A program made the translations under genes and the position numbers. A stretch of DNA of 64,000 nt from Deltaproteobacteria bacterium (GTDB lineage Bacteria; Bdellovibrionota; FAC87; UBA2466). The notes beneath the pieces were generated by a model. It made no database searches. It was given only the letters and a program-made list of their open reading frames with translations, and was not told where the DNA came from. Shown here piece by piece: positions 30,331 to 54,696 of this stretch (positions are counted from its first letter, which is position 1; each line of letters starts with the position of its first letter). Location: contig OMIX01000064.1 of NCBI GenBank assembly GCA_900299195.1, positions 1 through 64,000 of the forward strand. Direction: 5' to 3'.

Positions 30331-30540
30331 CTGCTCACTACTAAACTCGCTAGTAATCTACCCAGCAGTTTAGACTCCCCCATCATAAGGCCGTGGTCAG
30401 TAATATTCTTAACCAATTAATTCAAGTGGAAGTCTTATTACTGCTTTAGGCTTCCTGAACATGCAGGCATGCACACCGCAGCAAGTGAAAACCCCTGGTT
30501 AAGAAAATGTAGGTTAGAATAATTCTCACTCACGCACCAG

Positions 30541-30581
30541 ACAGGGGAGCTATCCTTTATTATAATTAAAGTCTAGCTCCC
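30541..30581. repeat. Isolated long inverted repeat/hairpin
   Basis: AGGGGAGCTA tc CTTTA ttataat TAAAG tc TAGCTCCCCT. Confidence 0.7.
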
Positions 30582-52581: not shown

Positions 52582-53718
52582 TCAGTGAAATGCCGATTTT
52601 TTAGAGGGAATAGGTTTGGCACTGGGATAGATTACCGTTTCAGTCGTCTTGGGAGTTCGTATTAGATAGCCAATTCCAATTCCTAGAAGGAGAGCCAATA
52701 CCGAGATACCCACTACTCTCCACGGAAGTTTTTTTAACATTCCTTTTTCTTCTGTGAGATCAGAATACTGAATGCTTGGGTTTAGAAGCGCTTCATGATC
52801 TAAATATTTTAGAATGATATCTGAAGTGTGCTGGCTCTTTTGGGGCCCCAAGTAATTTTCCAAATCAGAAATCAAAGATCGGACATCAGTATAACGATCT
52901 GTTGGATTTTTCCTAAGGCACTTTTCAATAATCTGATCCAACTTTTTTGGAATGGCAGAATTCATTTTTCGAGCTGGAATATACTTAGTTTCTCGAATCC
53001 TTTGAAAAACGGTCTCCTTTTCGGCTTCTTTGAAGGGACGCGTTCCAGTGAGCATTTCATAAAAAGTAATTCCCATGAGAAAAATATCTGCCGCCGGGGT
53101 GATCGGATCCCCCAAAACCTGCTCAGGGGATAAATAGCTAGGCGATCCTACCATCATTCCCGGACGAGTGAGCGAAGTGTTCTCAATGTCCATTACGATA
53201 CCAAAATCCATCAATTTCACTTCACCGCGAGTAGTTAACCTAATATTAGACGGTTTAATATCTCGATGAATTAAATGGTAAGCGTGAATATAACTGACTC
53301 CCCGAGCCACATTTAATAGAATCGCCGCAGCGATATCTGGAGGTAGATTTCCTACTTTTTGAACAATGGTAGAAAGATCCAAACCGTCAATATACTCCAT
53401 GAGCAAAAACGAATCTTGACCCGATTCCACAAAATCGTATACGTGTGCAATATTTTGATGGAGCACGGAGGCTAAGGCTTTGGCCTCTCTTCGAAATCTT
53501 TCTAGGGTCTCTGGGTTGGAAAAAAGTTCCTCCTTCAATTTTTTGACGACGATGTACCTTTCTAAAGAAGGCTGGCGAGCTCTAAAAATGTGAGCCATTC
53601 CACCGGAGGCAATTTTTTTAACTTCATCCAATACACCGCGAAGTTTGGCCACATGGTCGTCCGAGGAAAACGACTGAGAACCAATAATAGTTATCAAATT
53701 TTGATCTTGTTTATCCAT
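52582..53718 (-). CDS. Hanks-type Ser/Thr protein kinase with C-terminal TM
   Basis: HRDIKPSNIRL, DFGIVMD, SPSYLSPEQ; TM VVGISVLALLLGIGIGYLI. Confidence 0.95.
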   Translation of the reverse strand: MDKQDQNLITIIGSQSFSSDDHVAKLRGVLDEVKKIASGGMAHIFRARQPSLERYIVVKKLKEELFSNPETLERFRREAKALASVLHQNIAHVYDFVESGQDSFLLMEYIDGLDLSTIVQKVGNLPPDIAAAILLNVARGVSYIHAYHLIHRDIKPSNIRLTTRGEVKLMDFGIVMDIENTSLTRPGMMVGSPSYLSPEQVLGDPITPAADIFLMGITFYEMLTGTRPFKEAEKETVFQRIRETKYIPARKMNSAIPKKLDQIIEKCLRKNPTDRYTDVRSLISDLENYLGPQKSQHTSDIILKYLDHEALLNPSIQYSDLTEEKGMLKKLPWRVVGISVLALLLGIGIGYLIRTPKTTETVIYPSAKPIPSKKSAFH

Positions 53719-53842
53719 GAATTGAAGTGAGTCCCAAGATGCAAGTTACGGTTAATCCTATCATGAGACCTTTCACAACTCACCTGTAACCTTAAGTAAA
53801 CTTTAGGGGAGGCCACCGATGATCCCAGTCGATGACCTCCAC

Positions 53843-53878
53843 AAAAAACCCCGCTATTTTCACCTTGAAAACAGCGGG
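53843..53878 (-). terminator. Strong intrinsic terminator on the minus strand
   Basis: CCCGCTgTTTTCA agg TGAAAAtAGCGGG followed by GTTTTTT (minus strand); 12 bp plus one mismatch. Confidence 0.88.
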
Positions 53879-54066
53879 TGAGAGAGGAGTAGTGGTACCA
53901 CGAAAGAGTCGTATGAAAACCCCTTCGTGCTGCCCTACGGCAGACGGCTACCAACGATATTTCGACCGTTGGCAAATCGGATCCGGCTTTCCCCCTATTC
54001 TCCTCTCAACGCCGGATCTATTTTTCCCCCTTGTCCTAATCAGATTCCAAAGGAATCTGGTAGGAC
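53843..54066 (-). ncRNA. Candidate structured RNA / 3' UTR element with potential pseudoknot and intrinsic terminator
   Basis: Hairpins 54033-54066, 53980-54018, 53951-53972, 53930-53943, 53899-53929; GAGAGGAG (53882-53889) complementary to CTCCTCTC in the 53980-54018 loop (54000-54007); terminator 53843-53878. Confidence 0.5.
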
Positions 54067-54305
54067 CAATTCAATACTTTAGCTAGTTCTTCCTCCGAAA
54101 TCGAATCCCCTTCGAATTTCTTTTCCCCTGTTTCATTCAACCCGATAATCTGTTGCCCTCGAACCTGTTTTTCATGGAATTTTTTTTCTCCTGCTCGAGC
54201 TTTCATGGGGATCAACAGCACAAAGGCTGCCGTCACTATGACAAAAAATAAAACCTCAAGCAGTTGAATCCACTTCCCCCTGCTGCCGTTAGCTTGATAG
54301 TTCAA
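54036..54305 (-). CDS. Small single-TM hypothetical protein (possible TTG start)
   Basis: GKWIQLLEVLFFVIVTAAFVLLIPMKARAGEKKF; GGGGG SD ~8 bp upstream of TTG 54305. Confidence 0.4.
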   Translation of the reverse strand: MNYQANGSRGKWIQLLEVLFFVIVTAAFVLLIPMKARAGEKKFHEKQVRGQQIIGLNETGEKKFEGDSISEEELAKVLNWSYQIPLESD

Positions 54306-54592
54306 ATGGCTCTGCCCCCTTTGAGCGGTATCACCCGCTACGACTGATAGGACATAGCAAGAGCATGCCACCGTTCGTTGTTTAAGCTTTTTATAGAAAA
54401 GTTATGGGGTTAAATGATTGAAATTCTGCAGTTTGAGGGGTGTTTACTTCCGACTCTTTCCAAAACTGAGTAAAGTTTGTGCAACTGTCAAATTGTTAGA
54501 CACTTCAACAAAAGTTGTTCATTTCACCCGTTCTCCAGGAAATTTATGTCAGTGGTTGATTGTACATCCCTCTCTAATGAGATTTCTTAAAA

Positions 54593-54656
54593 AATAGAAA
54601 ACCAGGTCGTACGGCGCATTGCGAAGCCTAAGCCGGTAAGCCTAGTTTTCTATTTC
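54593..54656 (-). terminator. Large-loop intrinsic terminator downstream of lysA
   Basis: Stem AAATAGAAAACcAGG/CCTaGTTTTCTATTT (14 bp plus one mismatch), 34-nt apical region, then TTT on the minus strand. Confidence 0.75.
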
Positions 54657-54696
54657 CTGAAATTTATCCTAGCGGATAGGGTGTAGCCTCATTCTT

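Follow-up and report, generated by a model that had tools for sequence, protein, structure and literature searches.

A conserved RNA of Yfr1-like design upstream of a Ser/Thr kinase gene in Bdellovibrionota

What is the strongly folded RNA that lies between a small open reading frame (ORF) and a Ser/Thr protein kinase gene in a Bdellovibrionota genome, and does it act on that kinase or elsewhere? We analyzed the 64,000-nt stretch of DNA that carries it (here, the window). An earlier note, made from the sequence alone, had proposed a structured minus-strand RNA with a terminator end and a possible pseudoknot, and it had named an sRNA, a cis regulator of the kinase, and a 3' UTR element as possible functions. 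The inverted repeats that it listed are all present where it had placed them.

Fold, invariant core, and terminator

The minus strand of positions 53835 to 54075 folds at -97.7 kcal/mol, with a z-score of -5.5 against dinucleotide shuffles. The plus strand of the same region also gives a strong fold (z = -5.2) because inverted repeats necessarily fold on both strands. We assigned the RNA to the minus strand because of its T-run terminator, its promoter-like element, and its conservation. With this fold, the T run, and the conservation, the structured and terminator-ended minus-strand RNA of the earlier note was borne out. In a cmscan run, no Rfam family reached threshold in the region, which agrees with the note's failure to recognize RNase P, tmRNA, SRP RNA, or a riboswitch there. 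Elsewhere in the window, 6S RNA (RF00013, 99.5 bits) lies at 30373-30550 on the minus strand. The features of the locus are collected in Table 1.

Table 1. Coordinates of the RNA and its surroundings in the window
Feature	Position	Strand	Basis
Ser/Thr protein kinase, C-terminal TM	52582-53718	-	PF00069, E = 1.4e-52
Second hairpin just past the terminator (backup terminator/insulator)	53808-53840	-	by eye
T6 tract	53843-53848	-	sequence
Rho-independent terminator, stem 53851-53861/53867-53877 plus T6 53843-53848	53843-53877	-	covariation
Invariant single-stranded core ACCACTACTCCTCTCTC, proposed anti-Shine-Dalgarno-like seed	53880-53896	-	orthologue comparison
Stem-loop P4, CACGAA/TTCGTG, directly 5' of the core	53899-53929	-	
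Stem-loop P3, CTGCC/GGCAG (CTGC..GCAG)	53930-53943	-	
Stem-loop P2, CCAACG/CGTTGG at 53951-53972	53950-53974	-	
Stem-loop P1, purine-rich loop (proposed pseudoknot loop), GATCCGGC/GCCGGATC	53980-54018	-	
Hairpin over the small-ORF stop codon, GTCCTA/CAGATTCC with GGAATCTG/TAGGAC	54033-54066	-	sequence, fold
Small ORF, 89 aa, start TTG at 54305	54036-54305	-	aligned orthologues
Putative sigma54-type -24/-12 element TGGCATGCTCTTGCT	54356-54370	-	spacing GG-N9-GC, one base under canonical
Palindrome TGTCTAACAATTTGACAG, putative activator-binding site	54485-54502	-	orthologue comparison

Fold z-scores of all 12 orthologous regions ranged from -3.4 to -7.8, and a control region inside the kinase gene gave about 0. 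The individual hairpins are kept to different degrees. P4 is found in 12/12 orthologues with little common sequence, as judged from individual folds and z-scores; P3 is conserved in 11/12 and was not found in G010; the P2 position holds a hairpin of different sequence in most orthologues; and, by eye, several have a GATCCGG-type hairpin similar to P1. The most upstream hairpin, which the earlier note had counted within an RNA lying between the two genes, in fact includes the stop codon of the small ORF (54036 to 54038). Just past the terminator, most orthologues have the second hairpin, with a T run of its own in G007 and G012 (by eye).

By blastn, conservation in relatives was limited to the final 60 to 70 nt. 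At this conserved 3' end, a 17-mer that does not vary, ACCACUACUCCUCUCUC, precedes a Rho-independent terminator whose stem covaries. A search that allowed one mismatch found a single copy of the 17-mer, identical each time, in 12 of 15 genomes from the order; elsewhere in 369 genomes of the phylum, one-mismatch matches appeared in only two further genomes. The flanking hairpins change in sequence and keep their pairing, while these 17 nt stay the same. The segment is the most conserved of all the pieces, a rank that the earlier note, which had it merely as a pseudoknot partner, did not give it. In folds of the window RNA, the core was only partly unpaired (mean, 0.31). A shorter core, ACTACTCCTCTCTC, is common to two families outside the order, f8 and f14.

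We also scanned 84,980 named genomes for the 17-mer. The same loci were recovered in Bdellovibrionota metagenome-assembled genomes (MAGs), for example, in Bdellovibrionaceae bacterium UBA2466, and the handful of further matches all came without a terminator. Exact matches in Oscillospiraceae, cyanobacteria, Edaphobacter, Legionellaceae, and a Lac Pavin MAG were judged to be due to chance on that ground. One-mismatch matches in G112 likewise had no terminator.

Covariation was counted for the terminator stem alone because a column-by-column alignment of P3 and P4 was not possible. Both sides had changed in 6 of the 11 pairs, 97% of the cells were paired, and 0 of 500 shuffles reached the score. 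The earlier note had proposed looking for conservation and compensatory changes in relatives, and both were found in their orthologues.

The upstream ORF and its promoter-like element

The small ORF encodes one hydrophobic helix ending in ARA (a TM segment or a signal peptide) and has no Pfam match. Among its orthologues, the start region is conserved and changes are in excess at third positions; dN is about 0.5 to 0.7 where dS is measurable (1.8 to 3.3), and dS is otherwise saturated. By these patterns, the ORF is evolving as coding sequence under purifying selection in four species of the genus. The setting described in the earlier note, between a small TM ORF and a Ser/Thr kinase gene, therefore holds on both sides. 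For most members, this ORF has the RNA as its 3' UTR. The ORF was not found in G009, G012, and G014, where the RNA, the promoter-like element, and the terminator hairpin are still there.

Upstream of the RNA, nine genomes, including that of the window, carry the element TGGCAY-N4-TTGCW (GG-N9-GC) at 217 to 474 nt from the core; the spacer is N8 in G007 and N10 in G009. The element of the order thus has GG-N9-GC spacing rather than the canonical N10, and its sequence is otherwise consensus. All 15 genomes of the order have RpoN. Enrichment is strong for canonical GG-N10-GC sites and about threefold for GG-N9-GC sites. We read the element in the window as a putative sigma54-type promoter with a short spacer, and the sigma-54 system probably turns the RNA on.

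A palindrome, TGTCTAACAAWTTGACAG, lies 105 to 130 bp above the promoter element in most orthologues. It is rare, and its genome-wide occurrence is far above that of the reversed control. The form TGTCTAACAATTTGACAG occurs exactly twice in the genome, in the window and at L106 (G000:C49:5426-5443), each time upstream of a GG-N9-GC box. The second locus is kept in eight genomes, where it precedes a membrane-protein gene (no Pfam match for a 100-aa fragment). Further upstream, a long hairpin, AAATAGAAAAC..GTTTTCTATTTTTT, at 54583-54670 follows a lysA-like gene and is probably the terminator of that gene.

Members outside the order

A covariance model of the core and terminator was searched in the 369 genomes of the phylum. 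It returned all 12 members as well as divergent matches in family f8 and in G038 of family f14. Many weak matches in other families (E > 1e-3) were terminators only and were not counted. In family f8, the core ACUACUCCUCUCUC is joined to a terminator, as it is in the order, and it appears in two types.

At least 11 genomes carry type A, a stand-alone RNA some 65 nt long in which GTCCGCARGAWGCGG is followed by CTCATACTACTCCTCTCTCTC and then by the terminator. A canonical sigma54 box of the TGGCAY-N6-TGCA type (GG-N10-GC) stands just upstream of the CCGCARGAWGCGG-CTCATACTACTCCTCTCTCTC-terminator unit in 11/11 cases, compared with 80 per 100,000 random 45-mers in a control run at a spacer one base longer. 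Members of 66 and 68 nt fold into two hairpins flanking an unpaired C/U-rich segment. The terminator stem varies compensatorily; the 5' hairpin is without covariation because its sequence is invariant. Type A usually precedes a putative lipA-like gene, a fragment of which had no Pfam match, and a lipoyl-domain gene. In type B, a similar C/U-rich core and terminator lie in the 3' UTR of genes for small, apparently secreted proteins (L133, L136, L138, L143, L146, and L151), in some cases with the stand-alone sRNA about 200 nt downstream. Because of these f8 forms, we take the common unit to be a hairpin, a C/U-rich single strand, and a terminator.

Two loci in other families were noted as well. 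L142 (G038, f14) has the core CACTACTCCTCTCTC and a terminator at 1511-1562 on the minus strand, about 140 nt past the GG-N10-GC site TGGCACAGCCTTTGCT, and a 17-aa ORF may lie in between. L042 (G367, f29) has a one-mismatch core, ACAACTACTCCTCTCTC, and a strong terminator at position 1501 of the matched strand, in the 3' UTR of a secreted-protein gene, and is possibly another member.

Proposed function and comparison with known RNAs

Little has been published on trans-acting sRNAs in Bdellovibrionota. Hfq (PF17209) was not detected in 15/15 genomes of the order, with control genomes positive, and because of this, the most economical reading is an sRNA that blocks Shine-Dalgarno sequences without Hfq. 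We consider it rather probable that the RNA is a trans-acting, Hfq-independent sRNA transcribed from a sigma54-type promoter as part of a roughly 500-nt transcript, and that its anti-Shine-Dalgarno-like seed prevents several mRNAs from being translated. From the conservation, structure, terminator covariation, promoter-like elements, absence of detectable Hfq, and stand-alone form, all read from the genomes, we infer its expression, sigma54 dependence, processing, targets, and repression, which would proceed as follows. Transcription would start at the sigma54-type promoter near 54345, cross the small membrane-protein ORF, and terminate at 53843. The active sRNA would be the 3' part, either within the full transcript or as a processed 3' fragment, in which P4 and the terminator flank the invariant ACCACUACUCCUCUCUC. 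By pairing with Shine-Dalgarno regions of the GAGG/GGAGU type in several mRNAs, this segment would keep ribosomes from binding, with no need for Hfq. In f8, this core would belong to a roughly 65-nt sRNA that stands alone and is driven by a canonical sigma54 promoter. Against this reading stand the only partly unpaired core in folds of the window RNA and the N9 spacing of the promoter-like element in the order.

The same kinase gene lies directly downstream of the RNA, on the same strand, in 12/12 genomes, an arrangement that would also suit a cis-acting attenuator in which a ligand or protein, sensed by the hairpins and core, would set the read-through of the terminator into the kinase gene. 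The three genomes without the RNA favor this as well, since two have distant kinase paralogues only and the third has a kinase truncated by a contig end. However, the neighboring Mrp-like gene is also missing or split in genomes without an intact kinase, so assembly gaps may explain the joint absence of RNA and kinase. Furthermore, we saw no antiterminator that would overlap the stem of the terminator. Cis regulation of the kinase is weakened by the position of this terminator between the RNA and the kinase, where a second hairpin or terminator often backs it up, and by the f8 core, which has its own terminator and precedes a different gene; we regard an attenuator as unlikely. Among the functions that the earlier note had offered, an sRNA, here embedded in a 3' UTR, fits best.

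The invariant segment could be read another way. Near-complementary sites (up to 3 mismatches in 17) were in no excess over the reversed control, and trans targets with strong complementarity to all of the 17-mer were rejected on that ground, although short seeds would escape such a search. This lack of excess and a run of 17 invariant nt, which exceeds the length of most seeds, would fit an RNA that titrates or is anchored by a protein, with the C/U-rich segment as the site of an RNA-binding protein. Voss et al. raised the protein-binding alternative for Yfr1 too (PMC2190773), but the Yfr1 motif was later mapped by compensatory mutations to pairing with mRNA ribosome-binding regions (PMC6974561), and we hold protein binding to be similarly unlikely here. 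It is improbable that the RNA only stabilizes or terminates the small membrane-protein mRNA as an element of its 3' UTR: its position behind the TM ORF in most members and the f8 copies behind secreted-protein genes fit such an element, but termination does not need an invariant 17-mer, and the core is kept in the ORF-less members of the order and in the f8 stand-alone form. Finally, a pseudoknotted RNA in which the loop GAGAGGAG pairs with CUCCUCUC is very improbable, since the exact complementarity between CTCCTCTC (54000-54007) and GAGAGGAG (53882-53889) on which the earlier note had built it spans 8 nt in the window and in G001 but in a different register, and 4 to 7 nt in the others, such a loop is missing from the stand-alone RNA of f8, and the pairing is not above chance for so purine-rich a region (dinucleotide shuffles, scored for duplex energy and for the longest complementary run, matched the window in about 10% of cases: p of about 0.09 to 0.12 for the window and 0.18 to 0.6 for the 12 orthologues combined).

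Among known RNAs, the Qrr and GlmY/GlmZ sRNAs resemble the proposed trans-acting sRNA in that their genes depend on sigma54 and an enhancer-binding protein. They act in enterobacteria and vibrios with Hfq or RapZ, whereas in this order Hfq was not detected, and there is no sequence similarity (no Rfam match). Within the phylum, abundant noncoding RNAs, namely, merRNA and attack-phase sRNAs, have been reported in Bdellovibrio (PMC3627812). merRNA contains a c-di-GMP riboswitch; in contrast, Rfam finds no riboswitch in the window RNA. A literature search pairing Yfr1 with Bdellovibrio found no papers. The RNA is a genuine conserved regulatory RNA, previously unlisted as far as Rfam and this literature search show.

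The closest likeness is to Yfr1 (RF01116), the cyanobacterial functional RNA 1. Yfr1 is 54 to 69 nt long and has two stem-loops separated by 16 to 20 nt that hold ACUCCUCACAC (PMC2190773). Its layout of a 5' stem-loop, an unpaired segment with an invariant C/U-rich motif, and a 3' terminator hairpin is that of the f8 form, which at about 65 nt is also of like size, and the 3' module in the window has the same layout in a longer transcript. Yfr10 has the same motif as Yfr1 (PMC6778093), and the cyanobacterial Yfr10/Yfr2 network resembles f8, with its types A and B, in having several RNAs with one motif per genome. However, the Bdellovibrionota motif ACUCCUCUCUC is identical to ACUCCUCACAC at 9 of 11 positions and so differs from the strict invariant motif. 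The RF01116 model had no match in the window (gathering threshold, 38 bits); its best score, 24.6 bits over the full length and below threshold, was on L142. The phylum also differs, the Bdellovibrionota RNA is not between guaB and trxA, its promoter is putatively of sigma54 type, its invariant segment is longer, and in the order of the window it would form the 3' portion of a roughly 500-nt transcript that also carries a small ORF. The RNA is therefore Yfr1-like in design and, by Rfam score and strict motif, not a Yfr1. More tentatively, there may be a phylum-level sRNA family in Bdellovibrionota, either independent of Yfr1 in origin or sharing ancestry with it. Of its two forms, one would be a stand-alone sRNA, some 65 nt long and driven by sigma54, and the other an mRNA of dual function that encodes a small membrane protein, has an Hfq-free anti-Shine-Dalgarno regulator as its 3' UTR, and is functionally tied to the Ser/Thr kinase. 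If true, this would tie together sigma54 signaling, a small membrane protein, and a Ser/Thr kinase, and the likeness to Yfr1 would be a case in which Hfq-free regulators aimed at the Shine-Dalgarno sequence share a convergent (or ancient) design.
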